A DNA stretch of 64,000 bases from an uncultured beta proteobacterium (GTDB taxonomy: Bacteria; Pseudomonadota; Gammaproteobacteria; Burkholderiales; Burkholderiaceae), in contig CAIKFU010000108.1 of assembly GCA_903826775.1 (NCBI GenBank), positions 62,001 to 126,000 on the forward strand, written 5' to 3'. This document shows, one piece after another, positions 8,024-53,791 of the stretch. Each line of letters opens with the position of its first letter. The stretch's first letter is position 1. The position numbers were made by a program, and so were the translations under genes. The notes beneath the pieces were generated by a model, which did no database searches, was not told the DNA's origin, and saw nothing but the letters and a program-made list of their open reading frames with translations.

Positions 8024-8045
8024 GTGAAAGATTGGGTAGGCGGTG

Positions 8046-20965: not shown

Positions 20966-21853
20966 TTAAACCCTTTTAGGCAAATTGGATAGGAAGTGCT
21001 GTTTAATGGCTTGGGTAATGTTTTGACGACCATGCTTGCGACGCTCTAGTAGACCGACTTTTCGATATATTGTTTTGCCTGGCAATTCCTGAATTTGTAA
21101 CTGCCGATCACTGGCCCATGCGATGTTTGCAAGCTTAGGAACAATTGAGTATCCAAGCCCTTGGCGAACTAATTCGATAATGGCTTCTACTGAGTTCAGC
21201 TCCATGCCTTCTTTAATCGTAAGTTTATTAACTCGAATGGTTTGGTTGACGAGATGGCCTGTCCAAGTATTTCGTTCAAATCGAATAAACGGAAGGCTAT
21301 TTATCGCATTCTTATTGATGAATTTACCTTTTGCATGCGTACCAGGGTAAATCAAAATCATCGGCTCTGAGTAGAGCTCGGTCCATTGGACATTTTGTGG
21401 AAGAGTGTATGGGGATTCGGTAACAATTGCTGCATCAATATTGCTCTCGATCACTTGATCCAAGAAATTGCTGGATAGACCAGCAATAAGTTTAATTTCG
21501 AGCTCAGGATACCTTTGTTTAAGTTCATTAAGTGTTTTTCCAAAGGCTCCCATAAGCGTAGACACCAGCGCTCCTAAAATAATCGTGCCGCTTAATTCCG
21601 AATTGATGTTGGAACTTAAAGATTCATAGCGGGCAATAATTTCCTGTATGGGTTCAATTAGAGTCCGGCCTTGATTATTCAAAACCAACGACCGTTTTGT
21701 CCGGTCAAATAATTCAACCCCAATGTCACTTTCTAATTGTTGCAATTGATGGCCTGCAGCGGCAGCAGTTAGTCCAATCTCCCGAGCTGCTGCGGCAACA
21801 CTTTTATGCCTAGTAATGGCAATAAAATTCTTGAGGATTCGAATACTGGGCAT
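20966..21853 (-). CDS. LysR-family transcriptional regulator
   Basis: A 295-residue LysR regulator. The N-terminal helix-turn-helix spans residues 5-60 (ARRHKSVAAAAREIGL-like pattern, TAAAAGHQLQQLESDIGVELFDRTKR). The rest is the effector-binding domain. It is transcribed away from the reductase/hydro-lyase operon across 79 very A+T-rich bases, the standard arrangement for LysR activation of the divergent operon by a pathway compound. The effector is unknown; a C4 or sulfonated acid would fit the context. Confidence 0.93.
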   Translation of the reverse strand: MPSIRILKNFIAITRHKSVAAAAREIGLTAAAAGHQLQQLESDIGVELFDRTKRSLVLNNQGRTLIEPIQEIIARYESLSSNINSELSGTIILGALVSTLMGAFGKTLNELKQRYPELEIKLIAGLSSNFLDQVIESNIDAAIVTESPYTLPQNVQWTELYSEPMILIYPGTHAKGKFINKNAINSLPFIRFERNTWTGHLVNQTIRVNKLTIKEGMELNSVEAIIELVRQGLGYSIVPKLANIAWASDRQLQIQELPGKTIYRKVGLLERRKHGRQNITQAIKQHFLSNLPKRV

Positions 21854-21919
21854 TTTTTAATAAAATATATTTTTATCTCGATGAAAATTATATTCGATTT
21901 ATTTTTTATTATTTATAGA

Positions 21920-21933
21920 TATAATTTCGCAAA
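21920..21933 (+). promoter_or_regulatory. Perfect -10 box implying a leaderless mRNA
   Basis: TATAAT (21920-21925) is followed by only seven bases before the ATG of the iron-sulfur subunit gene. A transcript starting at the normal distance would begin at or next to the A of that ATG, with no leader and no Shine-Dalgarno. No good -35 is seen 17 bases upstream (ATTTAT), as expected for an activator-dependent LysR target. Confidence 0.5.
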
Positions 21934-22664
21934 TGACTAGCGACACTCTAAAAGTAAAGGTATGGCGAGGTACTCATGAAGGAGAGTTTGTTGAGTATTT
22001 GGTGCCCAGAAATGCTAATCAGACCGTCTTGGACGTAGTGACCTATATTCAGAGAAAACTGGATCCTACCTTAAGCTATCGTTTTGCTTGTAGAGTGGGG
22101 ATGTGTGGTTCTTGTGCAATGACGGTCAACGGAGTTGCACGATGGACTTGCCGAACCCATGTTTCAAAAATAGTGGTCGGTGATACCCTGGAAATTGCAC
22201 CCCTCACTAATCTACCTGTCATTAAAGATCTTGCTACAGATATGCGCGAATTCTTTAATAAATGGCGTGGGGCGGTGGGGTTTTTCAAAGGCGATAAAAC
22301 CCGTCATGATGATTTTGCGCTTGTTGAGCCAGACTCCAAAGAGAGGCGGCTTGCCAACGCCGGAATTGAATGCATAGGCTGCGGGGTTTGCTATGCATCG
22401 TGCGATGTCGTGTCGAGCAGGTCGGATTTTCTGGGTCCTGCTGCCTTAAATAGGGCATGGACGCTTGCAAACGATGTTCGGGATGTGCAACAAATGGAGC
22501 GTTTTGAGGCTGTAGCTGGAGACGCAGGCTGCCATGCTTGCCATACTCAAGGGTCTTGCACCGAATATTGCCCCAAACAAATAGAGCCAACCGGAAGCAT
22601 TGCGGGTCTAAAGAGGTTGGTCGGCCGATTGTCCATTAAGGGAATTGGGCGGGGCAAATTATGA
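21933..22664 (+). CDS. Fumarate reductase/succinate dehydrogenase-type iron-sulfur subunit
   Basis: A 243-residue electron-transfer subunit linking a flavoprotein to the membrane quinone site. The [2Fe-2S] ligands are in CRVGMCGSC and the later Cys of VARWTC. The [4Fe-4S] motif is CIGCGVCYASCD, with Asp instead of the usual Pro after the last Cys. The [3Fe-4S]-type motif is CHTQGSCTEYCPK. All clusters of the SdhB/FrdB family are thus present. It is the first gene of an operon in the unusual order B-C-D-hydrolyase alpha-beta-A, unlike the housekeeping sdhCDAB. It overlaps the next gene by four bases (ATGA). Confidence 0.92.
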   Translation: MTSDTLKVKVWRGTHEGEFVEYLVPRNANQTVLDVVTYIQRKLDPTLSYRFACRVGMCGSCAMTVNGVARWTCRTHVSKIVVGDTLEIAPLTNLPVIKDLATDMREFFNKWRGAVGFFKGDKTRHDDFALVEPDSKERRLANAGIECIGCGVCYASCDVVSSRSDFLGPAALNRAWTLANDVRDVQQMERFEAVAGDAGCHACHTQGSCTEYCPKQIEPTGSIAGLKRLVGRLSIKGIGRGKL

Positions 22665-23029
22665 AATGGGAGGCTGAATCACAAAGAACCCAGCAGGCGA
22701 GGCTTTGGTATATCCAAAGAATTAGCGGCATGATTTTGGGTATCTGTGTCTTCATACATTTATTGATTATTTTTTATGCGATTCGTGGTGGATTGACTGC
22801 GGTAGAGATCCTGGGTAGAACACAGGGCAACTGGATGTTCGCCATTTTTTACGAGGTCTTTGTGCTAGCCTGTTTTGCCCATGCCCCTATTGGGGTGGCC
22901 AACATCCTCAGGGAGGTTTGTCCTACAAGCAGCGTGACTAAGATTTTTCCTGCGGCTTTGGCAATTTTGATTATATTTTTAGGAAGTACGGCAGTGTTTG
23001 GGGTATTTACTGGAGGAGTGGCGCCATGA
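22661..23029 (+). CDS. Reductase membrane anchor subunit 1 (SdhC/FrdC-like)
   Basis: A 122-residue protein with three predicted membrane helices (about residues 20-42, 62-85 and 97-118). His residues at the ends of helices (FIHLLI in the first, CFAHAP in the second) could ligate haem b or line a quinone site. It overlaps both neighbours by four bases. With the next gene it forms the membrane anchor of the complex. Sequence similarity to known anchors is weak, so the assignment leans on gene order. Confidence 0.8.
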   Translation: MKWEAESQRTQQARLWYIQRISGMILGICVFIHLLIIFYAIRGGLTAVEILGRTQGNWMFAIFYEVFVLACFAHAPIGVANILREVCPTSSVTKIFPAALAILIIFLGSTAVFGVFTGGVAP

Positions 23030-23385
23030 AGTCCAGACCGCATTTAGATTTGCGTGCCAAAAAGCATCTTTCTTACTTTGCCTATTTGTGTCATCGCGTT
23101 TCTGGATTGTTATTGGCGTGTTTCATTCCGATTCATTTTTTCTTCTTGTCCCAAACGTTAAATGGGGTTGATGGACTGGATCGTTTTTTGCGTTTAACGG
23201 ACTTTTGGGTTTTTAAGCTGGGAGAATGTGTTTTGGTAATGCTGTTGGCAATTCATCTGGGAGGGGGGGTACGTCTTCTGGTAATTGAATTTGGAGCATG
23301 GCGAGGTCTTCGTAAAAGTTGGATTGAAATTGTGATTATTTTTACTATTGCTTGCGGAATTTTATTTTTATTTTTAGCAAACTGA
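23026..23385 (+). CDS. Reductase membrane anchor subunit 2 (SdhD/SdhC-like)
   Basis: A 119-residue protein with three membrane helices. The start of the first helix, CHRVSGLLLACFIPIHFFF, resembles the SdhC motif H-R-x-T/S-G that shapes the quinone site, and two His (H26-like and H38-like) could bind haem. The second helix contains AIHLGGGVRLL, a pattern seen in cytochrome b556 anchors. Coupled to the previous gene by an ATGA overlap. Confidence 0.82.
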   Translation: MKSRPHLDLRAKKHLSYFAYLCHRVSGLLLACFIPIHFFFLSQTLNGVDGLDRFLRLTDFWVFKLGECVLVMLLAIHLGGGVRLLVIEFGAWRGLRKSWIEIVIIFTIACGILFLFLAN

Positions 23386-23395
23386 TTGGATCATT

Positions 23396-24271
23396 ATGCA
23401 GTTACAAACGAGTTTGGTGGAAGAGGCTTGCAAAAATCTGTACATTCAAGCTCTTAAGGTCCTGCCTGATGATATCAAGCAGGGGATTGCCCGATTAAAT
23501 TCAGTGGAAACGGACTCTAGGGCTCAGGTGGTTTTGCAAACCATGGTTACTAATATTGCCGTTGCGGAGCGTGAAAATAATTTACTTTGTCAAGATACCG
23601 GTCTGCCGATTTACAACGTCAAAATTGGCCGTAATGTGCAGTTTGATGGCGTAGCTTTAAAAGATGCGATTCGCAAGGGTTGTGAGCGCGCTACCTTGGA
23701 GTACCCACTACGGTCGTCTGTAGTGCATCCCATAACCCGCAAAAATAACCATACTTCCTGTGGCATCGATATGCCAGCTATTCATATTGATTTTTGTGCA
23801 GATGCGGATTATGTAGAGATTGAGATGATTCCCAAGGGAAGCGGATCGGAAAACAATTCATTTTTGAAAATGGCTATTCCGGCCGAAGGTATCAATGGCG
23901 TAAAGGCCTTTGTGATAGAAAGTGTAGTCTCTGCCGGTGGAAAAACCTGTCCGCCAACGATCGTTGGCGTTGGTATTGGTGGAACTTCGGACCAATGCGT
24001 TGCCCTGGCTAAAAAGGCTGCCACCAGACCGCTTGGAAGCATATGCAGCGATCAAGAAGGTGCCAAGTTGGAGGTTGAGCTAAGTGCTGCGGTAAACAAA
24101 TTAGGCATTGGCCCTCAAGGGCTGGGTGGTGATGCGACGGCATTTGCAGTACAGGTTGAATTGGCTGCAACGCATATCACTATGAATCCAGTGGCTGTGA
24201 ATATGCAGTGCCATTCAGCCCGTCGTGCTCGTGCAATTTTTACGCCTGCGGGCGTGACCTACGGATTTTAG
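23396..24271 (+). CDS. Class I fumarase / L-tartrate dehydratase, alpha subunit
   Basis: A 291-residue [4Fe-4S] hydro-lyase subunit, the counterpart of TtdA (303 residues) or of the N-terminal half of FumA. The candidate cluster Cys are in CQDTGLPIY, NHTSCGID and GKTCPPT. The gene lies inside the reductase operon, 10 bases after the anchor gene. The enzyme adds or removes water at a C4 dicarboxylate (fumarate/malate, tartrate, mesaconate or an analogue). Substrate cannot be settled by eye because the family is promiscuous. Confidence 0.9.
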   Translation: MQLQTSLVEEACKNLYIQALKVLPDDIKQGIARLNSVETDSRAQVVLQTMVTNIAVAERENNLLCQDTGLPIYNVKIGRNVQFDGVALKDAIRKGCERATLEYPLRSSVVHPITRKNNHTSCGIDMPAIHIDFCADADYVEIEMIPKGSGSENNSFLKMAIPAEGINGVKAFVIESVVSAGGKTCPPTIVGVGIGGTSDQCVALAKKAATRPLGSICSDQEGAKLEVELSAAVNKLGIGPQGLGGDATAFAVQVELAATHITMNPVAVNMQCHSARRARAIFTPAGVTYGF

Positions 24272-24279
24272 GAGTAGAC

Positions 24280-24891
24280 GTGGCCCATTACTTTTTACCT
24301 ACCCCAGTAAGTGAAGCGGATGTCCGTCGTTTGAGGATTAACGATACAGTGACATTGCAAAATACCCTGTTTGGTATTCGTGATGCTACTCAGATCCATA
24401 TGTTTGATCGTGGTAGAAAAACCAAGTTCGATCTAAGTGGGCATGCAGTGATTCATACTGCTCCCAATGTGCGCAAGGTTCCGGTGAGCACAGAGTATCC
24501 CGTAGGGTATCAGCCGGTATGCATCGGCACGACTACTTCAGATCGGATGGAGCGGTTTACTCGACCGTTAATGCAACAAAATGGCGTTCGCATCATTGTT
24601 GGCAAGGGGGGAATGCGAGCGGATTCGATTGCGGCATTTCAGGAAATGGGGGGTGTATATCTTGCCATTATTGGCGGTACCGCCGCTCTTGAAACCACCT
24701 GGATAGAAAAGATTGAAGATGTGGATATGGACGATTTAAATCCTGAGTCACTGTGGCGGTTCAAGATTCGCGATTTTGGCCCACTTTTGGTTGCAATGGA
24801 CAGCCATGGGGGCAGTATTTATGAAGATGTAAAGGAAGAGGTCGCTCGGAATAGGGTTGCAGTGTTAAAAAGTCTGGGTGTGGGTTTATGA
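24280..24891 (+). CDS. Class I fumarase / L-tartrate dehydratase, beta subunit
   Basis: A 203-residue swivelling-domain subunit, matching TtdB (201 residues) in length. Family stretches include MERFTRPLM, the glycine-rich VGKGGM, and the C-terminal KIRDFGPLLVAMDSHGGS. The GTG at 24280 has a strong AGGAG 6 bases upstream; the longer frame from 24208 runs into the alpha gene and is unlikely. The stop overlaps the start of the flavoprotein gene by four bases. A separate beta subunit supports a TtdAB-like enzyme rather than single-chain FumA. Confidence 0.9.
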   Translation: MAHYFLPTPVSEADVRRLRINDTVTLQNTLFGIRDATQIHMFDRGRKTKFDLSGHAVIHTAPNVRKVPVSTEYPVGYQPVCIGTTTSDRMERFTRPLMQQNGVRIIVGKGGMRADSIAAFQEMGGVYLAIIGGTAALETTWIEKIEDVDMDDLNPESLWRFKIRDFGPLLVAMDSHGGSIYEDVKEEVARNRVAVLKSLGVGL

Positions 24892-26603
24892 TTTCCGTCG
24901 AAACAAAAGAAACCGATATATTGATATTGGGTTCGGGTGGGGCAGGTTTGTTTGCCGCGCTTCACGCCCATCAGGAAAATCCAGATTTACATATCACGAT
25001 TGCCGTCAAGGGGTTGCTTGGCAAATGCGGTTGTACCAGGATGGTGCAGGGTGGCTATAACGTTGCTCTTGCCGAGGGCGATTCGATTGAACGCCATTTC
25101 ATGGATACCATCGAGGGCGGCAAATGGCTATCAAATCAACAGCTTGCTTGGACTTTGGTCAATAAAGCTGTTGAGCGTATTCACGAATTGGAAAATGAAC
25201 TCGGCTGCTTTTTTGATCGCAATGCAGACGGGACTATTCATCAAAAGGCATTTGCTGGTCAAACATTTGATCGGACAGTTCATAAGGGTGATTTAACGGG
25301 CATCGAAATCATTAATAGGCTTTCTGAACAGGTTTGGGCGAGGGGGATTCATCGCCTTGAAGAGCATCGCGCAGTCGATTTAATTCACAGTTCGGATGGC
25401 GCATCCCTGGCCGGCGTTCTGATGATTAACATGCAAACGGGCAAGTTCGTCTTGGTGAAAGCAAAAGCCGTCTTGCTGGCTACCGGTGGTGGGCCGACAA
25501 TGTATAAATATCACACGCCCTCTGGCGATAAAAGCTGCGACGGTTTGGCGATGGCGCTTCGTGCAGGGCTTGTTCTACGCGACATGGAAATGGTTCAGTT
25601 TCACCCAACAGGGCTATTGGCTGGACCCGGGACGCGCATGACTGGTACAGTGCTTGAGGAAGGTCTGCGCGGTTCAGGCGGTTACCTATTAAACGGTGAA
25701 AACAAACGCTTCATGGGTAATTACGATTCCCGCAATGAGCGGGCTACACGCGATATTGTTTCCAGGGCAATTAATTCCGAAATCAGGGCTGGCCGTGCGA
25801 CGCCTAATGGTGGTGTTTATATTCAAATGAGCCATCTAGGTCCGGAGAATGTGCGCAAACAATTCAAAGGGATGGTTGAGAGGTGTGCCGATAGCGGCTT
25901 TGATCTTGCCGGTAGTCTGGTTGAGGTTGTACCTACTGCACACTATATGATGGGGGGGTTACTCTTTAAATCGGATTGCAGTACCGACCTAACTGGCCTT
26001 TTTGCCGCCGGTGAAGATACGGGTGGCGTTCATGGCGCCAATAGGTTGGGTGGAAATGGCGTGGCGAATTCCACCGTATTTGGCGGAATCGCAGGTCAAG
26101 AAATGGCCAAGTGGGTTGTAGGGAAATCACTCAAAGAATGCGATATGAATGAAGTTGAAGCGAGCATTCAAGCGCATGAAGCGCCATTTCTAAAACCTCA
26201 GGGTGATATTGAGGCGATTCGCGAATCGCTTGCCGAGTGCATGTGGGACGAAGTGGGTATTTCAAGAACAAAAGAAAACCTAGAGCAAGCAACCATTCAA
26301 TTGGATAAGTTGGAAAAGGATCTAGCCTCTATAGGCGTGGGAAATTTCCAACGCGAATACAGCATAACTTGGCAGGATTGGATTAATCTGCGCAATTTAA
26401 TCTTGGTTAGCAAGGTGATTACCGCGTCCGCTTTGGCGCGAGAAAATTCTCGCGGCGCGCATTACCGCGATGACTTTCCTGATCCGGGGTCAATGGAAGG
26501 TTCGTACTTTACGGCAGTCAGCATTAATCAAAACGGACTACAAGTTGAAAACAGACCGGTTGTTTTTAGCTTAGTTAAGCCCGGCGAATCGCTTTTAAGT
26601 TGA
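24888..26603 (+). CDS. Fumarate reductase/succinate dehydrogenase-type flavoprotein with altered FAD site
   Basis: A 571-residue flavoprotein of the SdhA/FrdA family. The FAD-binding GSGGAG is at residues 15-20. Catalytic elements include QFHPTG, the ERATRDIV stretch with its Arg, and HYMMGG. The segment that normally carries the covalently FAD-linked His (SHTVAAEGG in FrdA) reads GCTRMVQGG here, so the His is replaced by Cys49. This predicts non-covalent FAD. In E. coli FrdA, His44 replacements kept fumarate reduction and lost succinate oxidation. The gene is separated from the iron-sulfur and anchor subunits by the two hydro-lyase genes, but shares their operon. Likely works on a C4 dicarboxylate or analogue. 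Confidence 0.9.
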   Translation: MISVETKETDILILGSGGAGLFAALHAHQENPDLHITIAVKGLLGKCGCTRMVQGGYNVALAEGDSIERHFMDTIEGGKWLSNQQLAWTLVNKAVERIHELENELGCFFDRNADGTIHQKAFAGQTFDRTVHKGDLTGIEIINRLSEQVWARGIHRLEEHRAVDLIHSSDGASLAGVLMINMQTGKFVLVKAKAVLLATGGGPTMYKYHTPSGDKSCDGLAMALRAGLVLRDMEMVQFHPTGLLAGPGTRMTGTVLEEGLRGSGGYLLNGENKRFMGNYDSRNERATRDIVSRAINSEIRAGRATPNGGVYIQMSHLGPENVRKQFKGMVERCADSGFDLAGSLVEVVPTAHYMMGGLLFKSDCSTDLTGLFAAGEDTGGVHGANRLGGNGVANSTVFGGIAGQEMAKWVVGKSLKECDMNEVEASIQAHEAPFLKPQGDIEAIRESLAECMWDEVGISRTKENLEQATIQLDKLEKDLASIGVGNFQREYSITWQDWINLRNLILVSKVITASALARENSRGAHYRDDFPDPGSMEGSYFTAVSINQNGLQVENRPVVFSLVKPGESLLS

Positions 26604-26636
26604 GGTTCATTTTCAATCCCCAATTCCTTTTTAAGG

Positions 26637-27398
26637 ATGCACGCTATTTTTGAATTCATTGAGCCGACAACATTTGCGTTGGCTTTGCTGACTATCCTTT
26701 GCGCTTATTTCATCTTTGGCATTTCGGGATTTGGATCATCAATTGTTGCCGTTCCCTTGTTGGTTCAAATTTACCCGTTAAAAATCGTTGTGCCGATGAT
26801 GGTGTTGATTGATCTTTCAGCATCATTTTATCTGGGGAGAAAATTTTCCAATACGGCAAATAAGCAAGAGTTAAAGTGGTTGTTTCCTTTTACTTTGGCA
26901 GGTATGGCAGCGGGAATTTTCTTGTTGGTGAATGCGCCTAGCAAACCGTTGCTGGTTACTTTAGGGATTTTTGCAGTTGCCAATGGAGCTCGTACGTTGT
27001 TGCAAAAAGGAACAATGAAGCAAAAACCGATTAATAAATGGTGGGCAGTGCCATTTGGGGTTTGTGGCGGAATGTTTACGGCTTTGTTTGCAACTGGAGG
27101 CCCGATTTATGCTTCGTACTTAAACTTTCGATTAAGTGATCCGAGGGTTATTAGGGCAACCATGGCCTTCGCCATTTTTATGCTGACCTTTTTAAGGTTG
27201 CTATTCATGTTGATTTCTGGCCTGATCTTAAGCTGGCCAATTTTCGGATTGGCTCTATGCTTAATCCCAGCGATGATTGCGGGTGTTGGGTTGGGTTCGC
27301 ACGTGCACTCAAAAATGACCCATACGGCAATGCGCGTTACCTATGGATCAATTTTGTTATTTTCGGGGATATCGCTTTTAGTAAAGCAATGGTTGTAA
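26637..27398 (+). CDS. TauE/SafE family permease
   Basis: A 253-residue membrane protein with about seven to eight hydrophobic helices and the family patterns GISGFGSS near residue 28 and FATGGP near 145. TauE/SafE proteins move sulfite, sulfoacetate or other small anions, often outwards. It starts 33 bases after the flavoprotein gene on the same strand and is probably the last gene of that operon. A sulfite or sulfonate role fits the neighbouring sulfolactate genes, but export of an organic acid is equally open. Confidence 0.85.
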   Translation: MHAIFEFIEPTTFALALLTILCAYFIFGISGFGSSIVAVPLLVQIYPLKIVVPMMVLIDLSASFYLGRKFSNTANKQELKWLFPFTLAGMAAGIFLLVNAPSKPLLVTLGIFAVANGARTLLQKGTMKQKPINKWWAVPFGVCGGMFTALFATGGPIYASYLNFRLSDPRVIRATMAFAIFMLTFLRLLFMLISGLILSWPIFGLALCLIPAMIAGVGLGSHVHSKMTHTAMRVTYGSILLFSGISLLVKQWL

Positions 27399-27400
27399 AG

Positions 27401-27422
27401 CTGTGAAGTCTAGACTTCACAG
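27401..27422. terminator. 22-base perfect palindrome between convergent genes
   Basis: CTGTGAAGTCT is followed directly by its reverse complement AGACTTCACAG. As RNA it would form a 9-base stem with a CTAG loop. It starts two bases after the TauE/SafE stop and lies 18 bases beyond the stop of the convergent Bug gene. There is no U-tract on either strand, so it may stall polymerases from both sides or bind a dimeric protein rather than act as a standard terminator. Confidence 0.55.
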
Positions 27423-27439
27423 GGTATCAACTAACACCG

Positions 27440-28429
27440 TTATTGCGCAGTAATATTGCGCCCTTTAATCACCTTCTCCCAGATTTCCGATTCTGCTTTA
27501 ACTTGGTCGTTAAATTCTTTGGGAGTGTTAACAATTGCGGTTAAGCCATTTAGTTCCAGACTGGTTTTCATGGCGTCTGAATTGACGGCTTTAATGGTCG
27601 CAGCATATAGTCTTTGAACAATGGCATTCGGTGTTCCGACAGGAACAACCAATCCAAACCAGCCGGTGTTTTCAAATCCAGTGATCCCCGATTCTGCAAC
27701 CGTGGGAACATTGGGGAGTTGTTTAATGCGTTTGAGGCTTGTAACGGCTATGGGTTTAATTTGCCCTGCTTTAGCAAAGCCGACAGCGGCGGTTAGATTT
27801 CCAACCATGAAGTCAATCTGACCGGCGACCAAATCGTTGAGCGCTGCAGATTCACCTTTATACGGCACATGGGTGGCGGTAATGTCAGCAGAAAAAATGA
27901 GGTTTTCTGCTGCCATATGAACCTGGCTGCCGATACCTGCCGAGCCAAAATTTAAATCCTTTGATTTTGCCAAGGAAATTAATTCAGCTAGATTTGTAAC
28001 GGGCAGTTTAGTGCTCACGGAAAGCAGCATGGGGCCACTTGCCACGTTGGTAATGTAGGTAAAATCCTTGCTGTAGCTAAAAGGCAATTTTTTATAGAGG
28101 AACGGGTTTACGGTCAGCATGCTTCCAGACGCAAGCATGATGGTGTATCCGTCAGCCGGTGATTTTGCTACCGCTTCGGCCGCGATATTTCCGCCGGCCC
28201 CGGCCTTGTTTTCGACTATTACATTTTGTCCTAGGTTGGCCGTAAGTTGTTGAGCCAGTATCCTTCCAAGGATGTCAGTAGTTCCTCCCGCTGCGAAGGG
28301 GATGATTAGTTTTACCGGCTTATCAGGCCAGTTTTGGGCCTGAGTTGTTAATGGCGCTGATGCGAATGCAAGCAACCCCATAAACAAGGTTAAATATTTA
28401 GTTAAGGGGTATGTTTTTTTTAATATCAC
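27440..28429 (-). CDS. Bug/TctC-type periplasmic solute-binding protein (3 of 6)
   Basis: A tripartite tricarboxylate binding protein of about 329 residues. Signal peptide (KYLTLFMGLLAFASAPLTTQAQ) is followed by WPDKPVKLIIPFAAGGTTDIL. The longest frame starts at a TTG (28450), but the GTG at 28429 has AAAGGAAA 6 bases upstream and is preferred. It is divergent from slcC across about 210 bases. In Chromohalobacter a complete tripartite system (slcHFG) sits with slcC, so this protein may bind sulfolactate, although the membrane subunits are missing here. The gap contains an ATAAGCTTAT palindrome (28515-28524) but no gene. Confidence 0.9.
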   Translation of the reverse strand: MILKKTYPLTKYLTLFMGLLAFASAPLTTQAQNWPDKPVKLIIPFAAGGTTDILGRILAQQLTANLGQNVIVENKAGAGGNIAAEAVAKSPADGYTIMLASGSMLTVNPFLYKKLPFSYSKDFTYITNVASGPMLLSVSTKLPVTNLAELISLAKSKDLNFGSAGIGSQVHMAAENLIFSADITATHVPYKGESAALNDLVAGQIDFMVGNLTAAVGFAKAGQIKPIAVTSLKRIKQLPNVPTVAESGITGFENTGWFGLVVPVGTPNAIVQRLYAATIKAVNSDAMKTSLELNGLTAIVNTPKEFNDQVKAESEIWEKVIKGRNITAQ

Positions 28430-28604
28430 TGGCTTTCCTTTTTTGGGCAATGTAACAGTAGATCTTAGTTATTTATTTGAGTCTTGGTAATATTTTTTTT
28501 TCAATTTTATTGTTATAAGCTTATGCCCATAATTTACTGCGGTTTTTCAAATTAGAATCTTATCGATCGAAACTTATTTTTTTAGGTTTCCATAGTAATG
28601 GGTG

Positions 28605-28639
28605 TTGCAGAACATCTAAATCATCTATATGATATAGAT
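28605..28639 (+). promoter_or_regulatory. slcC promoter and palindromic operator
   Basis: TTGCAG (28605-28610) and TATGAT (28628-28633) are spaced exactly 17 bases. The -10 box sits inside the perfect palindrome ATCTATAT-G-ATATAGAT (28623-28639), which ends directly against the ATG of slcC. Transcription would start at the A of that ATG, giving a leaderless mRNA, and a bound dimer would block the promoter. The GntR/HutC regulator encoded in the same cluster is the natural candidate. Sequence pattern seen; function inferred. Confidence 0.55.
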
Positions 28640-29575
28640 ATGTCTTCTATTTTGATCTCTGAGTTCATCACAAGTCAAGCCCTAGAAACCCTGCGTTCTA
28701 AACACCACGTTGTATATGAGCCGGAGTTGTATAAGGAGCGGGCTGCATTAATTGCTGCGCTGCAAAATTCTGAAGCATTGATTGTGCGCAATTTAACTCA
28801 AGTGAATCAAGAGTTATTGTCTGGAGCTCACGGTTTAAGGGTTGTGGGGCGCTTGGGCGTGGGTTTGGAAAATATTGACGTGCCAGCATGTGCTGCACGC
28901 AATATCAAAGTCATTCCCGCAACAGGGGCGAATGCTGAATCCGTAGCGGAATATGTGGTTGGTTCGGCGGTAGCTTTGGTGAGGGGTTTTTTGCCGGCAA
29001 CCACTGAAACTTTAAGTGGCGGTTGGCCTAGACCGCACTTTTCCGGATACCACGAATGCCTTGGTAAGACCTTGGGGATAGTGGGTTTTGGGAGTATTGG
29101 GCGCATTGTTGCTAAAAAAGCGGCTGCTTTTGGATTGCGGTGCATTGCCCATGATCCCATGATCTCAAGTTCATCTGTAGAGGTTCATGGCGCATTACTA
29201 AATTTGCTTCCATTGGCTGATTTGCTGACTCAAAGCGATGTTGTTACTTTGCATTTACCCTTGTTGGCAGCTACGAAGAATCTATTTAACGCGTCCGTTT
29301 TGGATCAAATGAAAAAAGGCGCATGCCTTATTAATACGGCACGTGGCGGCATTGTCGATGAGCTGGCTTTAGCTGATCGACTGCGTTCCGGTGTATTGGG
29401 CGGTGCCGCCATTGATGTTTTTGATGTTGAGCCTGCAAAAGATTTAAGCCACTTTGTTGGCATAGGAAATCTGATTTTGACTCCACATATTGCCGGGGTA
29501 ACATTTGAGAGCAACGAGCGGGTAAGCCAGATGATTGCTGATGAAGTAAACCGCGTTTTGGAAGGGCAAGCATGA
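28640..29575 (+). CDS. slcC: (S)-sulfolactate dehydrogenase
   Basis: A 311-residue NAD-dependent D-2-hydroxyacid dehydrogenase family protein. It oxidises (S)-3-sulfolactate to 3-sulfopyruvate in the cytoplasm. The opening SSILISEFITSQALETL and the segment ALIVRNLTQVN resemble Chromohalobacter SlcC. The Rossmann motif is VGFGSIG; catalytic residues are the Arg in NTARGGIVDE, the Glu in FDVEP and the His in TPHIAGV. The frame is open from 28598, but homologues begin at the second Met (28640), where the promoter also predicts the RNA start. It overlaps the next gene by four bases. Phosphoglycerate-dehydrogenase-like function is the alternative, made unlikely by the cluster. Confidence 0.82.
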   Translation: MSSILISEFITSQALETLRSKHHVVYEPELYKERAALIAALQNSEALIVRNLTQVNQELLSGAHGLRVVGRLGVGLENIDVPACAARNIKVIPATGANAESVAEYVVGSAVALVRGFLPATTETLSGGWPRPHFSGYHECLGKTLGIVGFGSIGRIVAKKAAAFGLRCIAHDPMISSSSVEVHGALLNLLPLADLLTQSDVVTLHLPLLAATKNLFNASVLDQMKKGACLINTARGGIVDELALADRLRSGVLGGAAIDVFDVEPAKDLSHFVGIGNLILTPHIAGVTFESNERVSQMIADEVNRVLEGQA

Positions 29576-30573
29576 TATTGTCATACGAAGAAATGGTTAA
29601 GTTGGCGTCATCGGGATTGCAAGCTGCCGGCATTAATCAGCAGGCTGCATATGAAACAGCGCAGTTCCTAGCGCTTGCAGAACTTGATGGCCTTGCCTCC
29701 CATGGCCTAGCAAGGGTAAATCAATATGCTGAGCATGCAAAGAATAATCGCGTGGATGGGAAGGCAAAAATTAAAGTTCAGGCGTTTAAGCAATCGGCTG
29801 CATTGGTTGATGCTAGCGATGGATTGGCATTTCCAGCATTGCGATTTGCAACCGACTTGTCGGTTAATTTAGCATCAGCGACTGGCATCGGATTGGTTGC
29901 CGTAACCAATAGCCATCATTTTGGGGTGGCTGGTCATTTCACAGAAGCGGCAGCTCGCGCTGGTTATATTTCATTGCTGTTTGGTAACACGCCAGCGGCG
30001 ATGCCCATGGTAGGGGGTACTAAAGCTATTTTTGGAACAAATCCATTGGCTGCAGCTTTTCCTGTAAAAGGGTCGAATCCAGTGGTGATCGACATGTCCC
30101 TTTCGGCGGTTGCTCGAGGGAAGCTGTTGGTAGCGGCGAAAAAAGGGGAAGTCATCCCTGAAGGTTGGGCGTTAACAGCGCTTGGAGAGCCAACTACCGA
30201 TCCAAATGAAGGGCTTAAAGGATTAATGGTTCCGTTGGGGGGCGATAAAGGCGCATTGCTTGCATTGATTATTGAGTTGTTGGTTGTTGGCCTTTCCGGT
30301 AGCCGCTTTTCTTATGAGGCGGATTCCTTTTTTAACTCGAAGGGCAATCGACCCAGGATCGGGCAATTGTTGATCACGATTGATCCAAATTTATCAGGCA
30401 GGGGTATTTTTGCAAAAAGGATGCAAGACTTTTTAGGTGTTTTGGGCAAGGAAGAAGGGATTCGCCTTCCTGGCCAGCGTCGTTTTAAGCAACGTGCCCT
30501 TGGGTTTGGCAATGGTGTGAATGTGGTTGATCAAGTTGTAGAGGAAATTCAAGCTGGCATCCGCCAGTCTTGA
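29572..30573 (+). CDS. comC: (R)-sulfolactate dehydrogenase (Ldh2/MDH2 family)
   Basis: A 333-residue NAD(P)-dependent dehydrogenase of the malate/L-lactate (YiaK/ComC) family, unrelated in fold to SlcC. It reduces sulfopyruvate to (R)-3-sulfolactate. The catalytic SHHFG motif is near residue 113, and ASHGLARV near 43-50 is also a family mark. Together with SlcC it would act as a two-enzyme racemase, feeding both enantiomers to the lyase, as shown for Chromohalobacter. Coupled to slcC by an ATGA overlap; 37 bases before suyA. Alone the sequence could be ureidoglycolate or malate dehydrogenase; the neighbours decide. Confidence 0.82.
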   Translation: MILSYEEMVKLASSGLQAAGINQQAAYETAQFLALAELDGLASHGLARVNQYAEHAKNNRVDGKAKIKVQAFKQSAALVDASDGLAFPALRFATDLSVNLASATGIGLVAVTNSHHFGVAGHFTEAAARAGYISLLFGNTPAAMPMVGGTKAIFGTNPLAAAFPVKGSNPVVIDMSLSAVARGKLLVAAKKGEVIPEGWALTALGEPTTDPNEGLKGLMVPLGGDKGALLALIIELLVVGLSGSRFSYEADSFFNSKGNRPRIGQLLITIDPNLSGRGIFAKRMQDFLGVLGKEEGIRLPGQRRFKQRALGFGNGVNVVDQVVEEIQAGIRQS

Positions 30574-30610
30574 CCAATATATTTAAATAGAAGCGAATAA
30601 GGAGAGCGGA

Positions 30611-30892
30611 ATGATTCATTTTGTCGTGCATGAACCAGGAGATGGGGTAGGTGTCGTCGTCGTTGAAGGTGTAAAAGCGGGGGCGGATTTAATTGGTTGG
30701 GTGATGGACGGAGACCTGACTTTGAATATGAAATCCGAAAGTGATATTCCGATTGGTCACAAAATTTCATTGAATGAATTTAAACCTGGCGATACGGTGA
30801 TGAAGTATGGCGTTGATATTGGTAAGGTAGTAGCCCCTATTAAAAAGGGTGAGCACCTCCACGTTCAAAACGTAAAAACTAAGCGCTGGTAA
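30611..30892 (+). CDS. suyA: (R)-sulfolactate sulfo-lyase, alpha subunit
   Basis: A 93-residue SAF-domain protein, the small subunit of the enzyme that splits (R)-3-sulfolactate into pyruvate and sulfite. The size fits the roughly 8-10 kDa reported for SuyA. Its C-terminal part DTVMKYGVDIGKVVAPIKKGEHLHVQNV is the UxaA/altronate dehydratase small-domain pattern. AAGGAGAG stands just before the ATG. A small separate SAF subunit followed by a UxaA-like subunit is the suyAB arrangement. Confidence 0.88.
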   Translation: MIHFVVHEPGDGVGVVVVEGVKAGADLIGWVMDGDLTLNMKSESDIPIGHKISLNEFKPGDTVMKYGVDIGKVVAPIKKGEHLHVQNVKTKRW

Positions 30893-30931
30893 CCCAGCCC
30901 TTAATTCACCTATTCATTGAGAAAGAAAAAA

Positions 30932-32104
30932 ATGATTAATTTGAAAGACACAACCTTTATGGGTTACCGCCGTGAAAACGGTCGCATGGGTATTCGTAAC
31001 CACGTACTGATTTTGCCTTTAGATGATTTGTCCAATGCAGCTTGTGAGGCTGTTGCAAATAACATCAAAGGTGCAATGGCGATTCCTCACTCTTATGGAC
31101 GTTTGCAATTCGGCGCTGATTTGGACTTGCATTTCCGTACCTTAATTGGGACAGGAACTAATCCGAACGTAGCTGCAGTGGTGGTAATTGGTATTGAGCC
31201 ACAGTGGACCAAGATTGTTGTTGATGGTATTAAAGCATCTGGCAAGCCTGTTGAAGGTTTCTGGATTGAAGGCAATGGCGATACCGCTACGATTGCATCA
31301 GCAAGTAAGGCTGCTTACAAAATGATGAAACATGCTTCTAAACAACAACGTGTAAAAGCGCCGTTGTCAGAGCTCTGGGTTTCTACAAAGTGCGGTGAAT
31401 CTGATACAACATCTGGTTGTGGTGCAAACCCAACCGTTGGCGATGCTTTCGACAAGTTATATGGTATTGGTTCAACTTTGGTATTCGGTGAAACTACTGA
31501 ATTAACTGGCGGTGAGCATTTGGTTGAAGCTCGTTGCCGTACCCCCGAAGTGAAGAAAAAGTTCCGCGAAATGTTTGATCGTTACCAAGATGTAATCGAA
31601 CGTCATAAAACAAGCGACTTATCGGATTCTCAGCCTACCAAAGGCAATATTGCAGGTGGCTTGACTACCATCGAAGAAAAAGCATTGGGCAATATTCAGA
31701 AAATTGGTAAGAAATGTATTGTTGATAGCGTACTAGATAAAGGTGAAGAGCCAACCTTTCCTGGTTTGCACTTCATGGACTCGTCTTCAGCTGCTGCCGA
31801 GATGGTGACTTTATGTGCTGCTGCTGGTTTTGCTGCGCATTTTTTTCCAACAGGTCAAGGTAACGTAATCGGCAATGCCATTCTTCCGGTAATCAAGATT
31901 TGCGCTAACCCAAAGACAGTTCGTACGATGGGTGAGCATATTGACGTGGACGTATCAGGTATTTTGCGTCGCGAAGAGAACATGGATCAGGCTGGCGATA
32001 AGTTGTTGGAATGCCTCTTGCGCACTGCCGATGGCGAGCTTACTGCATCTGAAATTCTCGGCCATCGCGAATTCGTATTAACTCGTTTGTACGAATCAGC
32101 ATAA
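30932..32104 (+). CDS. suyB: (R)-sulfolactate sulfo-lyase, beta subunit
   Basis: A 390-residue UxaA-family lyase subunit that desulfonates (R)-3-sulfolactate to pyruvate plus sulfite, probably with an iron centre. The opening [18 protein letters not shown] and the stretch VRNH-like [19 protein letters not shown] match SuyB as I remember it. [14 protein letters not shown] and [17 protein letters not shown] hold conserved Cys and Gly. Length equals SuyB (about 42 kDa) and is much shorter than altronate or galactarate dehydratases. The ATG at 30932 is preferred to the upstream TTG (30917). Codon choice looks more optimised than in neighbours, suggesting high expression. Confidence 0.9.
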
Positions 32105-32114
32105 GCTCTAGAGC

Positions 32115-32834
32115 ATGAAATCCCTGACCGCTTATCAAGAAGTAAAGCAGAAGATTACCGAAGATCTGGTCAGGGGTCGCTATCCTATGGGGCAGGCATT
32201 GCCTGCTGAAAAGGATTTGTCAAAAGAGTTAGATGTATCGATAGGAACCCTGCGTAAAGCGGTGGATGAGTTGGTAGCCGAAGGCATTGTTATTCGTCGT
32301 CAAGGCAGGGGAACCTATGTTGCCGAGCATGATCTCAAACGATTGCTGTATTACTTTTTCCATGTGGTAAAGCATGATGCCGATAAAAAAGTGAATCCTC
32401 GAGTTGAGCTCATTTCCTTAAATAGTGCTATCGCTAATAAAGAAGAGGCCTATAAACTTCAAATCAAAGAAGGTGCCCCAGTTTGGCGAATACTAAATTG
32501 TCTTTATATAAGTGATCAATGCGTCATGATTGACCAGATCACTCTAGATAAGAAGCGGTTTAAGAGTTTGACACGAGCCGACTTTATTAATCGAAAGGGC
32601 AGTATTTATCAGTTGTATCAGATGCACTTTGGGCAAACAGTGGTGCGCAGCAGTGAGCGCCTGCGTGCTGGTTTGGCTGGAAAACAGTATGCTGAATGGT
32701 TGGGATTAAAGCCAACATCACCTGTCTTGGTGATTAGACGAGTCGCATTGGGCATGCAGGATGAGCCCCTAGAGTGGCGAGTTTCTACTCTCAATACCGA
32801 GCAACACGAATACTTTAGTGAGTTAGTTGTTTAG
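32115..32834 (+). CDS. suyR: GntR/HutC-family regulator of the sulfolactate genes
   Basis: A 239-residue repressor-type protein. The winged helix spans residues 5-72 (GRYPMGQALPAEKDLSKELDVS, then the wing RRQGRGTYV). The C-terminal UTRA ligand-binding domain spans about 80-235. It starts 10 bases after suyB, and that gap is the small palindrome GCTCTAGAGC (32105-32114), which might give it its own control. A regulator of this family accompanies suyAB in other bacteria. The probable operator is at slcC. Confidence 0.85.
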   Translation: MKSLTAYQEVKQKITEDLVRGRYPMGQALPAEKDLSKELDVSIGTLRKAVDELVAEGIVIRRQGRGTYVAEHDLKRLLYYFFHVVKHDADKKVNPRVELISLNSAIANKEEAYKLQIKEGAPVWRILNCLYISDQCVMIDQITLDKKRFKSLTRADFINRKGSIYQLYQMHFGQTVVRSSERLRAGLAGKQYAEWLGLKPTSPVLVIRRVALGMQDEPLEWRVSTLNTEQHEYFSELVV

Positions 32835-32853
32835 TCAAAACTAACTCCCATTA

Positions 32854-33921
32854 ATGAACTTTTATAAAAATATTCCAGGCATTTTATTTGCCACCATCGT
32901 TGCCTTGGTGGCAATGGAGATGTCGAGCAGATATCCCGCGTTGGGAAAAAATGGTCTTAGTATTTTGACTATGGCAATATTGATAGGAATTGCCATAGGA
33001 AATATGCCAATTTATAAATTCTTGATTGCATCCTGTGGGTCTGGAATCAATTTCTCTAAACAGAAAGTCTTGCGCCTAGGGATTATTCTGTACGGCTTCA
33101 GGCTTACCTTTCAGGATATTGGCATCGTAGGCCTTAATGGCATCATTATTGATGTCCTCACTTTGGCGTCTACGTTTTTATTGGCAGCTTATTTGGGTGT
33201 CAAATTTTTTAAGTTAGATCGAGATACCTCAATTCTGATTGGGGCGGGTAATTCAATTTGTGGTGCCGCCGCAATCTTGGCCACAGAGCCCATATTAGAA
33301 GCATCAAATGAACGGGTGGCGGTCGCTATCTCAACGATAGTCATCTTTGGCACATTCGCTATATTTCTTTATCCAGTAATATATTCCTATGCAATTTTGA
33401 ACTACCCCGAGTACTTAACCCCAAGTCAATTTGGCGTATACATTGGTTCAACAGTTCATGAAGTTGCTCAAGTGGTGGCTACCGCAAACGCAATCGGTGA
33501 TGAGGTAACCAATACGGCTGTCATTGCAAAAATGGTTCGAGTCATTATGCTGGCTCCATTCTTGATTGCTTTATCTGCCTATGTGTCGATCTCTGAGAAA
33601 GTAATAAACTCTTCTTCTAGCGGGTCTACGGGGTCTAGTAAAAAATCTTTGCTTGCTAAATTTTTCCCTGTATTTGCAATTTTCTTTTTATTTGCAATTG
33701 GCGTAAATTCTTCGGGGATTGTAAGTCAGTCTGTACGAGAGATGCTCATTACTATTGATAACTTTTTATTAGCTTTGGCTATGGGTGCCTTGGGCTTAAC
33801 TACCCATCTTTCGGCTATTGCAAAAGCAGGAATAAAGCCCATTCAATTGGCTGCAATTCTATTTATTTGGCTGATTTTTGGTGGCGGTTTAATCAATATG
33901 GCAGTCGATTATTTAATGTAG
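32854..33921 (+). CDS. YeiH/UPF0324-type putative sulfate or sulfite exporter
   Basis: A 355-residue membrane protein with about ten hydrophobic helices. It is recognised as the YeiH family from GAGNSICGAAAILA near residue 130 and GSTVHEVAQVVA near 205. Proteins of such families accompany desulfonation genes and are thought to remove the sulfite released, or sulfate formed from it. It is the last gene on this strand, 19 bases after suyR, and converges on cysN. Direction and cargo are inferred from context. Confidence 0.85.
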   Translation: MNFYKNIPGILFATIVALVAMEMSSRYPALGKNGLSILTMAILIGIAIGNMPIYKFLIASCGSGINFSKQKVLRLGIILYGFRLTFQDIGIVGLNGIIIDVLTLASTFLLAAYLGVKFFKLDRDTSILIGAGNSICGAAAILATEPILEASNERVAVAISTIVIFGTFAIFLYPVIYSYAILNYPEYLTPSQFGVYIGSTVHEVAQVVATANAIGDEVTNTAVIAKMVRVIMLAPFLIALSAYVSISEKVINSSSSGSTGSSKKSLLAKFFPVFAIFFLFAIGVNSSGIVSQSVREMLITIDNFLLALAMGALGLTTHLSAIAKAGIKPIQLAAILFIWLIFGGGLINMAVDYLM

Positions 33922-33962: not shown

Positions 33963-35312
33963 TTACTGAGCCAAGGCCTCACGTATCATTCCTGCCGCAA
34001 CTGTATGGTTGGTGGCTTCATCAATCAGGATGAACGCGCCTGTACGCTGAGATTGATCAAATAAGTCAGCTACGATGGGTTTTTGCAACACAAAGTCTAT
34101 GCGACCAATTTCATTCGTAGTTAAAGGATGAGATTTGTCCGCATGTGACAGAGTTTGAACATCTAAAACATGCCTAATCTCTTTCACTTTTGCGCCAACA
34201 GTATTAGTGGTGTGGCGTAAAGCATATTTACGGCTCAGAGAAAGAGGCTCGCTATCTAACCAGCAAAGGTCGGCAGAAATTTGTTTGCTCAGTGTAGGTG
34301 GCGTTGCATCATCTGCGCCTACAAATAAGCAGCCACGTGATACATCAATATCTTCCACTAGACGAATTGCCAAAGCTTGGCCAGTTTGCGCTGATTCCAC
34401 CTCGTTATTGGTATTGGTTTGATCACGATTAAAACGGTTGCCTAAATAGATCTCTGCAACAGTGGCTTCAGTATTGCCTGGAAGTACTTTAACCTTCTGA
34501 CCTTTGCGAATGCTGCCAGATTCAATTTCACCGAGGTAGCCACGGAAATCATCTGAGGCACTACCGTCTTGGCGTGCAACATATTGAACAGGGAAGCGTA
34601 AGGCTAGCTTCTCAGACTCTGGGCTTGTATCTAAGCCTTCTAACCACTCGAGTAGGGTGGGGCCCTTGAACCAAGGGGTGTCCTTGCTCGCCGTAACGAC
34701 ATTAGCACCAAGGAGCGCAGAAATTGGGATCAAGATGGGTTTTGCTAAACCAATTTTCTGGGTTAAGTCTTCAATAGCAGATTTGATCGTATTGAATACT
34801 TTCTCATCAAAATTAAATAAATCCATTTTGTTGACAGCAAATACAACGTGGCGCAATCCTAAGAGATGAACAATTGCAGCATGACGTTTAGTTTGCACTA
34901 ACAAAGTAGCTGTTGAAGTATTGAGGTCAACACGACTAGCGTCAACCAGAATGACAGCTACATCCGATTGGGATGCGCCAGTAACCAGGTTTCGTGTGTA
35001 CTGCTCGTGTCCTGGAGCATCAGCAACAATGAACTTGCGTTTAGGAGTCGAGAAATAGCGGTAGGCCACATCAATCGTAATTCCTTGCTCGCGCTCAGCT
35101 TCTAGTCCGTCAGTTAAAAGCGCAAGGTCTACGCCAGCATCTGAAGAGGTAACGCGGGCATGCTTGGTTTTGGAGAGGGACTCCAGTTGATCAACCAAAA
35201 TAGATTTAGTGTCATAAAGCAGGCGACCGATCAAGGTGCTCTTGCCATCATCAACGCTGCCAGCTGTAATGAAGCGAACGACGTTTTGGTACGGATTTTG
35301 ATGAGTAGTCAT
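33963..35312 (-). CDS. cysN: Sulfate adenylyltransferase GTPase subunit
   Basis: A 449-residue translational-GTPase-like subunit that couples GTP hydrolysis to activation of sulfate to APS by CysD. GTPase motifs: GSVDDGKSTLIGR near residue 16, DAPGHEQY near 96 and NKMD near 150. There is no C-terminal APS kinase domain, so it is CysN alone rather than CysNC, which fits the APS-reductase type CysH next door. It overlaps cysD (TGATG). Last gene of the cys operon. Confidence 0.96.
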   Translation of the reverse strand: MTTHQNPYQNVVRFITAGSVDDGKSTLIGRLLYDTKSILVDQLESLSKTKHARVTSSDAGVDLALLTDGLEAEREQGITIDVAYRYFSTPKRKFIVADAPGHEQYTRNLVTGASQSDVAVILVDASRVDLNTSTATLLVQTKRHAAIVHLLGLRHVVFAVNKMDLFNFDEKVFNTIKSAIEDLTQKIGLAKPILIPISALLGANVVTASKDTPWFKGPTLLEWLEGLDTSPESEKLALRFPVQYVARQDGSASDDFRGYLGEIESGSIRKGQKVKVLPGNTEATVAEIYLGNRFNRDQTNTNNEVESAQTGQALAIRLVEDIDVSRGCLFVGADDATPPTLSKQISADLCWLDSEPLSLSRKYALRHTTNTVGAKVKEIRHVLDVQTLSHADKSHPLTTNEIGRIDFVLQKPIVADLFDQSQRTGAFILIDEATNHTVAAGMIREALAQ

Positions 35313-36235: not shown

Positions 36236-36262
36236 TCGTTACTTCATTCTTATTGAGATTAA

Positions 36263-39899: not shown

Positions 39900-39981
39900 T
39901 TTGTGCAATATTCCTTTAAGGCTCAATTTTAACCCTTGCTAGGGTATGGGGTATGCCATGCTGCCCTAGTATCATTGGGGT

Positions 39982-53678: not shown

Positions 53679-53791
53679 TAGATTCAAGAACCACTTAAAA
53701 TTAGGCGATTAAGGGTTTAGATCCCATTGTGGCTATTGGTACTGCAGTAGTTCAAATTTTTCCAACAACTTCTTATGTCTGGACTGCGCTT

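Follow-up and report, generated by a model that had tools for sequence, protein, structure and literature searches.

SuyAB is previously known in Burkholderiales and is said to cleave (R)-sulfolactate (PMC12421959); the published cluster of Cupriavidus pinatubonensis JMP134 has the order hpsRNOUPsuyAB (PMC11382572). Homotaurine is one source of 3-sulfopropionate; some gut bacteria form it from dihydroxypropanesulfonate (DHPS) when they break down sulfoquinovose (PMC11489063, PMC5320631). A passage of a 2024 paper describes bacterial degradation of 3-sulfopropionate as not reported before and cites only a thesis, according to which homotaurine degradation proceeds through 3-sulfopropionate, sulfoacrylate and sulfolactate (PMC11489063). 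Among the matches listed in the literature searched, which mostly excluded subscription papers and theses, we found no genes for 3-sulfopropionate oxidation and no paper with both Polynucleobacter and sulfolactate, and passages of PMC11610557 and PMC2627906 do not join sulfolactate with succinate dehydrogenase. Here we describe a locus in a 64,000-nucleotide stretch (the window; contig C108, positions 62001-126000) of a 2.56 Mb Polynucleobacter genome, in which a suyAB operon follows an operon of complex II-like and fumarase-like genes. We consider it fairly probable that window positions 20966-33921 encode one two-part pathway, leading from 3-sulfopropionate via 3-sulfoacrylate and (R)-sulfolactate to pyruvate and sulfite.

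An earlier note on this DNA had read the second operon as a complete module for degrading both enantiomers of sulfolactate, consisting of slcC, comC, suyA, suyB, a GntR regulator and a YeiH-type exporter, in what looked like a freshwater-type betaproteobacterium. The six open reading frames (ORFs) are indeed present in one tight run, all on the plus strand with gaps of -4 to 37 nt, and domain searches agree that SlcC and ComC come from unrelated families (D-2-hydroxyacid dehydrogenase and Ldh_2). The host is a Polynucleobacter: the nearest SuyB proteins in named records, at 97% identity, are from this genus (Burkholderiales). The module does not stand by itself; it appears to be the second part of a longer pathway, and the genes for the first part, at 21933-27398, were overlooked. 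The genes of the locus, in window positions, are:

20966..21853, minus strand: LysR-type regulator, divergent from the upper operon (PF00126/PF03466)
21933..22664, plus strand: iron-sulfur subunit, complex II-like (Fer2_3, Fer4_8)
22661..23029, plus strand: membrane anchor 1, SdhC/D-like (PF01127, E 2.3e-4 and 21.7 bits, under the curated cut-off)
23026..23385, plus strand: membrane anchor 2, SdhC/D-like (PF01127, E 3.6e-9, over the cut-off)
23396..24271, plus strand: fumarase-like hydratase alpha (FumA), type A (over the cut-off of NF004885, fumarate hydratase)
24208..24891, plus strand: fumarase-like hydratase beta (FumB), start uncertain (PF05683 Fumerase_C; solved fumarase beta relatives)
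24888..26603, plus strand: flavoprotein, proposed 3-sulfopropionate dehydrogenase (FAD_binding_2, Succ_DH_flav_C)
26637..27398, plus strand: TauE/SafE sulfite exporter of the upper operon (PF01925)
27440..28450, minus strand: TctC-type periplasmic binding protein, candidate substrate receptor (PF03401)
28598..29575, plus strand: SlcC, (S)-sulfolactate dehydrogenase candidate (2-Hacid_dh, 2-Hacid_dh_C)
29572..30573, plus strand: ComC, (R)-sulfolactate dehydrogenase candidate (Ldh_2)
30611..30892, plus strand: SuyA (small-subunit position; 93 aa, separate ORF)
30917..32104, plus strand: SuyB, putative sulfolactate sulfo-lyase large subunit (galactarate/altronate dehydratase second and C-terminal domains, GD_AH)
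32115..32834, plus strand: GntR/UTRA regulator (PF00392, PF07702)
32854..33921, plus strand: YeiH-type sulfite or sulfate exporter (TIGR00698, over the cut-off)

The clue to the upper operon was plasmid pMRAD01 of Methylobacterium radiotolerans, found in the SuyB plasmid search, on which fumarase, flavoprotein and TauE genes lie beside suyAB and genes for a 2-hydroxyacid dehydrogenase, an Ldh and a GntR protein. In the window, the genes from the complex II-like iron-sulfur subunit to TauE (21933-27398) overlap or are at most 33 nt apart. The complex II-like set comprises four subunits, i.e. the flavin adenine dinucleotide (FAD) protein, the iron-sulfur protein and two membrane anchors, of which anchor 1 is the one below the curated cut-off; orthologues of the iron-sulfur subunit are annotated as succinate dehydrogenase/fumarate reductase iron-sulfur subunit, and the gene at the anchor 1 position is annotated as succinate dehydrogenase in other genomes. 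The host has three other flavoproteins of the same Pfam family (two SdhA-like and one NadB-like by motif), and as these sit on other contigs, the complex encoded in the upper operon is an extra one. The LysR gene is at the same place in many, but not all, Polynucleobacter loci whose flank extends that far; tctC likewise keeps its place between the two halves in Polynucleobacter loci, and TctC homologues lie inside the operon in other genomes. Four TctC-type binding proteins are encoded in the window (3646-4629, 7043-8155, 27440-28450 and 38931-39926), and there is no TctA or TctB among the window genes searched, i.e. those up to 57059.

3-Sulfopropionate is succinate with one carboxylate swapped for a sulfonate, so that the logic of succinate, fumarate and malate would yield sulfolactate. 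We propose that the membrane-bound complex II paralogue would oxidise 3-sulfopropionate to 3-sulfoacrylate and pass the electrons to quinone, that the class I fumarase paralogue would add water to 3-sulfoacrylate at C2 to give (R)-sulfolactate, and that TauE would carry sulfite out. In the lower half, SlcC and ComC would bring imported (S)-sulfolactate to the R form via sulfopyruvate, SuyAB would split (R)-sulfolactate into pyruvate and sulfite, YeiH would export the sulfite, and GntR would regulate. By our own derivation from the Cahn-Ingold-Prelog rules, the geometry of L-malate corresponds to (R)-sulfolactate, which is the enantiomer that SuyAB cleaves. For the upper operon we infer substrate, direction, regiochemistry and stereochemistry; the gene content, clustering, co-inheritance and active-site changes described below are direct observations. 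The best HpsN match in the host genome has only 35% identity, and we therefore dropped DHPS, converted via HpsN, as the host's source of sulfolactate; in a different genome of the genus (G001), HpsN/O genes do lie next to the operon.

SuyA and SuyB are the split small and large subunits of the UxaA/GarD superfamily, as expected for SuyAB. SuyB, a separate ORF of 395 aa, has a TTG start followed by an ATG 15 nt later; SuyA has no Pfam match, a weak match to galactarate dehydratase and an altronate hydrolase chain as best solved relative, and SuyB is immediately preceded by a SuyA match in almost every locus of the flank listing, which leaves out L001, L002 and L019-L021 (the exceptions are contig edges and L102). 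SuyB is 75.9% identical to SuyB of the C. pinatubonensis HN-2 plasmid, the protein on which the identity was measured, and 62-64% identical to those of Paracoccus; the HN-2 order, hpsN-hpsO-MFS-dehydrogenase-suyA-suyB (MFS: major facilitator superfamily), agrees with that of JMP134. This synteny and the 76% identity support the gene names proposed in the earlier note. That note had also held that a best match of SuyAB to altronate or galactarate dehydratases would speak against sulfolactate, and the best named NCBIfam match of SuyB is in fact galactarate dehydratase (score 154 bits, cut-off 731; best PDB match 6u7l). We do not regard this as refuting the assignment, because no SuyB model or chain is among the NCBIfam and PDB matches, and because the host's full-length protein of the UxaA/GarD type shares only 31% identity with SuyB. 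The latter, together with the orthology to the Cupriavidus locus, led us to reject an identity as altronate or galactarate dehydratase.

Four cysteines are described in a passage of PMC6336799 as conserved across the UxaA/GarD superfamily, SuyAB excepted. Our alignment of 124 sequences contains three conserved cysteine columns; two of these cysteines, which each of the 4 aligned full-length GarD/UxaA-like proteins has, are replaced by Leu or Ile (116/118, 2 gaps) and deleted (118/118), respectively, in the SuyB group (118 sequences, 62-100% identical to the window SuyB), while the third is kept in both. The signature is not specific to SuyB, since the split-type outgroups L102 and L123 are likewise without both cysteines. 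On the basis of orthology and locus we take SuyAB to be a member of the sulfolactate sulfo-lyase family. One Polynucleobacter-like sequence, L057, groups with an outgroup in the SuyB tree, at a support of 0.42. For ComC, the best NCBIfam model is NF040650, L-sulfolactate dehydrogenase (215 bits, under the cut-off of 500, with a strong Ldh_2 match), and the second-best solved relative is the L-sulfolactate dehydrogenase 2x06; SlcC, which has a further in-frame ATG 42 nt downstream of its start, is 44-54% identical to 2-hydroxyacid dehydrogenases adjoining SuyAB outside the genus. Dozens of Polynucleobacter-like loci contain the same run SlcC-ComC-SuyA-SuyB-GntR, which is thus not a chance assembly; the adjoining YeiH is less constant. 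A Polynucleobacter-like suy operon (L046, SuyB 89%) is also found on a contig titled as a Thermoflexus hugenholtzii metagenome-assembled genome (MAG), which is probably mislabelled or a mixed bin.

The two halves are inherited together. Of 200 genomes sampled from the order, 28 have the flavoprotein subfamily, 26 have type A FumA (see below), all of them among those 28, and 35 have SuyB. SuyB is present in 28/28 flavoprotein genomes (and in 26/26 with type A FumA), and the flavoprotein in 0/165 genomes that have no SuyB; by genus, the flavoprotein occurs in 17 and SuyB in 20 of 108, with SuyB in 17/17 flavoprotein genera (Fisher p = 6e-28 by genome and 4e-17 by genus, kinship not corrected for). 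In a sample of 61 relatives, 37 of them in the genus, SuyB and the flavoprotein occur in 12 genus members each and together in 10; the two genomes with the flavoprotein only are explained by contig ends (G001, just after SlcC; G022, on a 4.4-kb contig), and G003 and G025 have SuyB only. The 24 relatives outside the genus have both in the same five genomes and neither in 19. Across the phylum (398 genomes) the flavoprotein was found in 11, SuyB in 15 and both in 5, and outside the genus the association is weaker, with SuyB in 3/9 flavoprotein genomes (p 0.002).

Gene order points the same way. A recurrent arrangement in other Burkholderiales, with variants, is suyA-suyB-(thiamine diphosphate (ThDP) enzyme or sulfite oxidase-like)-iron-sulfur subunit-anchor-anchor-tctC-fumA-fumB-flavoprotein-comC. 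Strands were compared in 28 non-Polynucleobacter and 54 Polynucleobacter-like loci, leaving out type B loci and counting only labelled genes. SuyB and the flavoprotein are both present in 22 of the 28, and in 20 of these 22 all labelled intervening genes are on one strand; two of the 20 (L101 and L126, Methylobacterium) have an annotated TauE on the opposite strand. Both occur in 35/54 Polynucleobacter-like loci, and where at least 9 kb 5' of SuyB is available, the flavoprotein is present in 32/36; of the four that lack it there, only L069 has one elsewhere in its genome, in contrast to L040, L048 and L049. Outside Burkholderiales, the combination of type A fumarase with SuyAB, SlcC and ComC is found again in Methylobacterium. 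Against this background, we consider it very unlikely that two unrelated sulfonate modules merely share a genomic island: each half of the window does have its own exporter and regulator, and in G514 the halves lie 1.9 Mb apart, but in the order sample SuyB accompanies the flavoprotein in 28/28 genomes, less than 20 kb away in 21 of them (on different contigs in six), and same-strand clusters recur in other genera.

Clusters elsewhere add sulfite dehydrogenases, sulfite exporters and dicarboxylate-type transporters; further recurrent genes, read by eye in 14 loci, are mainly transporter-like, with some sulfatase-like frames. A gene that is sulfatase-like by its sequence start lies inside the suy/complex II cluster at L222:10336-11712, L224:14119-15519, L225:8352-9782, L227:5513-6892 and L233:10903-12276. 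In an actinobacterium, Rhodococcus jostii RHA1, plasmid pRHL1 (NC_008269.1, 793453-817035) has SuyB (59%), the flavoprotein (51%) and FumA (49%) within ~24 kb. On a Natribaculum luteum plasmid (L123:4587-11555), a 49% flavoprotein with the Glu and Cys described below has as neighbours an iron-sulfur protein, TauE, a gene annotated argH and a split UxaA pair (SuyB 37%), so that here an ArgH/fumarase-superfamily enzyme may take the place of the class I fumarase.

The active site of the flavoprotein suggests a substrate other than succinate. In a phmmer alignment, Glu257 of the window protein aligns with the Thr of the TEG motif in E. coli FrdA, which is Thr244 in mature numbering and contacts the substrate; a Cys replaces the FAD-carrying His of SdhA and FrdA. 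Both replacements are found in 71/71 aligned subfamily flavoproteins, a set that omits the duplicates L103 and L113-L116 and fragments below 500 aa, counts identical proteins once, and includes members at 60-63% identity (Paracoccus, Sulfitobacter, NT-25, Pseudomonas) and a haloarchaeal one at 49%. The three other flavoproteins of the host retain the Thr. Since the residues of the HPT, RD, HY and GANRLG motifs are kept in the subfamily alongside the Glu and Cys changes, the enzyme looks competent for complex II chemistry on a different substrate, and with the covalent-FAD His and the substrate Thr both replaced we have not filed it as a succinate dehydrogenase. FAD may be unbound or bound to the Cys. 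An Arg or Lys in an inserted loop is likewise found in 71/71 (68 Arg, 3 Lys); we considered it as a sulfonate anchor and dropped it, as it is missing in the Solidesulfovibrio flavoprotein and the loop is partly similar in a solved Sdh (7d6v). One genome of the genus Polynucleobacter (G028:C15:10888-12558) encodes a second flavoprotein, 51% identical to that of the window and placed between the subfamily and ordinary SdhA.

The fumarase-like proteins fall into two types. Type A FumA (58 sequences, 65-100% identical to the window protein) keeps the motif PKGSGSEN; in type B (18 sequences, 31-37%), which forms a long branch, the motif is incomplete. The iron-sulfur ligand cysteines C65, C185 and C272 are invariant in all 79 FumA sequences, and Rhodococcus (49%) and Solidesulfovibrio (51%) fall between the groups. 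Type A is 64-74% identical across genera, compared with 31-39% to other phylum-sample matches outside the genus. Type B sets lie with exporters or transporters and without SuyAB in the fetched stretch in Sulfitobacter, Pseudomonas sp. MPC6, Methylobacterium nodulans and NT-25/NT-26; in Paracoccus, a type B set and SuyAB share an island. The type B operon of strain MPC6 contains a methylmalonate-semialdehyde dehydrogenase (TIGR01722, over the cut-off), and homologues of 61-64% identity are found close to those of Cupriavidus P-10 and G202; in all, three type B sets have such a dehydrogenase in or near the operon (L119, L121 and L161). This tentatively suggests that a type B hydratase would add water at the other, sulfonated carbon, after which sulfite would leave by itself and malonate semialdehyde would remain, with no dedicated C-S lyase. 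NT-25/26 further have a gene resembling sulfolactaldehyde reductase (324 bits, cut-off 348) and one resembling succinate-semialdehyde dehydrogenase, which fit a formation of 3-sulfopropionate from 3-hydroxypropanesulfonate.

A third version may exist in Desulfovibrionaceae. We searched the genomes of 21 of the 75 named SuyB loci (L077, whose fetched flank contains a flavoprotein, and 20 loci whose flank does not) and found a subfamily-like flavoprotein in those of L077 (70%), L069 (82%), L088 (63%) and L087 (46%); the other 17 gave matches of at most 37%, or none at the threshold. In the L087 genome, a Solidesulfovibrio MAG, the flavoprotein has the same Glu and Cys. In this MAG, one region (L240:3058-16078) combines the flavoprotein, FumA/FumB (51%), a fusion of iron-sulfur and Rieske parts and a cytochrome b/c protein with a dicarboxylate symporter, a sigma-54 regulator, an Ldh_2 and a TauE-like gene, and is a candidate cluster for 3-sulfopropionate respiration. 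By taxonomy look-up, Solidesulfovibrio and Bilophila both belong to Desulfovibrionaceae, which makes this version relevant to Bilophila, whose mechanism of 3-sulfopropionate degradation is called unclear in a passage of a January 2026 review (PMC12890257). In Bilophila, the FAD/SDH-domain pair WCP94_000741-742 is annotated as AprAB and has low similarity to known AprAB (PMC11610557). We put forward, tentatively, a general sulfonate counterpart of the succinate-fumarate-malate sequence, consisting of a 3-sulfopropionate:quinone oxidoreductase of the complex II family and a 3-sulfoacrylate hydratase, with type A leading to sulfolactate, type B to direct desulfonation, and a Rieske/cytochrome b version in Desulfovibrionaceae; if true, this last version would explain 3-sulfopropionate use in that family.

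Several observations weigh against the two-part pathway from 3-sulfopropionate. The first concern the flavoprotein: E. coli FrdA without covalent FAD reduces fumarate and cannot oxidise succinate, so the His-to-Cys change could favour the reductive direction; the Glu is not an obvious ligand for a sulfonate in the pocket; and the loop Arg/Lys is absent from Solidesulfovibrio, as mentioned. The loss of the His, and a best NCBIfam match to fumarate reductase TfrA (530 bits, below the cut-off of 718), would fit a reverse run, with dehydration of sulfolactate to sulfoacrylate and reduction of the latter to 3-sulfopropionate serving as an electron sink. To this we assign a very low probability, as SuyAB in the cluster, the sulfite exporters and, elsewhere, the sulfite dehydrogenases point to desulfonation, and the named hosts are largely aerobes.

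The second group of observations concerns FumA and the distribution of the genes. FumA passes the cut-off of an ordinary fumarate hydratase model (NF004885), and with the class I fumarase cysteines and motif retained, the upper operon could encode isoenzymes of succinate dehydrogenase and fumarase that withstand inhibition by sulfite or sulfonates and allow the Krebs cycle to continue during sulfolactate degradation. We believe this to be decidedly unlikely, because a residue in contact with the substrate is changed in all members, which speaks for a different substrate. The distribution cuts both ways: SuyB occurs without the flavoprotein in 7/35 SuyB genomes of the order sample, and 6/11 flavoprotein genomes of the phylum sample have no SuyB at the threshold used, so that the flavoprotein does not always feed SuyAB; yet both facts also argue against resistant isoenzymes. 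All six of the latter genomes have a fumarase only 31-33% identical to that of the window, i.e. type B.

Thirdly, all 35 Polynucleobacter loci with both genes have mixed strands, the halves being split by the opposite-strand tctC, and C4-dicarboxylate-type transporters (tripartite tricarboxylate transporter (TTT), DctA-like, SDF) accompany many clusters. The transporters would suit sulfosuccinate as the substrate, converted via sulfofumarate to sulfomalate, which would be oxidised and decarboxylated to sulfopyruvate and reduced by ComC to sulfolactate for SuyAB; alternatively, hydration at the sulfonated carbon would give sulfite and oxaloacetate. A ThDP enzyme able to decarboxylate an oxoacid is indeed present in several clusters, but we identified no decarboxylase in either window operon, the oxaloacetate route needs no SuyAB although SuyB accompanies every order-sample flavoprotein, and sulfosuccinate is mainly a man-made surfactant unit; we therefore consider this substrate unlikely.

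With 3-sulfopropionate as the favoured substrate, the operon provides specific genes to examine in Polynucleobacter, Methylobacterium and Paracoccus as well as in many Burkholderiales, and thus makes the degradation of this compound directly testable. It also suggests that complex II and fumarase were recruited as a pair to a sulfonate, and ties the freshwater genus Polynucleobacter to organosulfonate turnover. Following the operon, on the opposite strand (33963-37782), are a second TauE, recognised by Pfam, and genes that by eye are of the CysN, CysD and CysH types. Elsewhere in the window, ORFs of 337 aa (46109-47122) and 364 aa (53729-54823) have no Pfam match at E 0.01. The window as a whole gave no Rfam match and no tRNA.

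In comparison with known systems, the upper operon shares with respiratory complex II the flavoprotein, a 2Fe-2S/4Fe-4S-type subunit, two Sdh_cyt-like anchors and the motif residues, but its flavoprotein is 33-38% identical to the ordinary relatives found in the 61-genome sample (apart from the 51% protein of G028) and differs by the Thr-to-Glu and His-to-Cys replacements, a longer loop and the linkage to SuyAB. Similarly, FumA has the three cysteines and a KG.GSEN-type motif in common with two-subunit class I fumarase/L-tartrate dehydratase, but falls in a separate group. The lower half resembles the SlcC/ComC/SuyAB pathway of Chromohalobacter salexigens and Paracoccus (SuyAB also in C. pinatubonensis JMP134) in its two unrelated dehydrogenases, lyase and exporter; the differences are a GntR gene inside the operon and the junction to the complex II-like/fumarase-like operon. 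For the pathway as a whole, the closest counterpart is the 3-sulfopropionate degradation proposed for Roseovarius nubinhibens (J. Mayer thesis, cited in PMC11489063), which has the same intermediates and for which the citing passage gives no genes.

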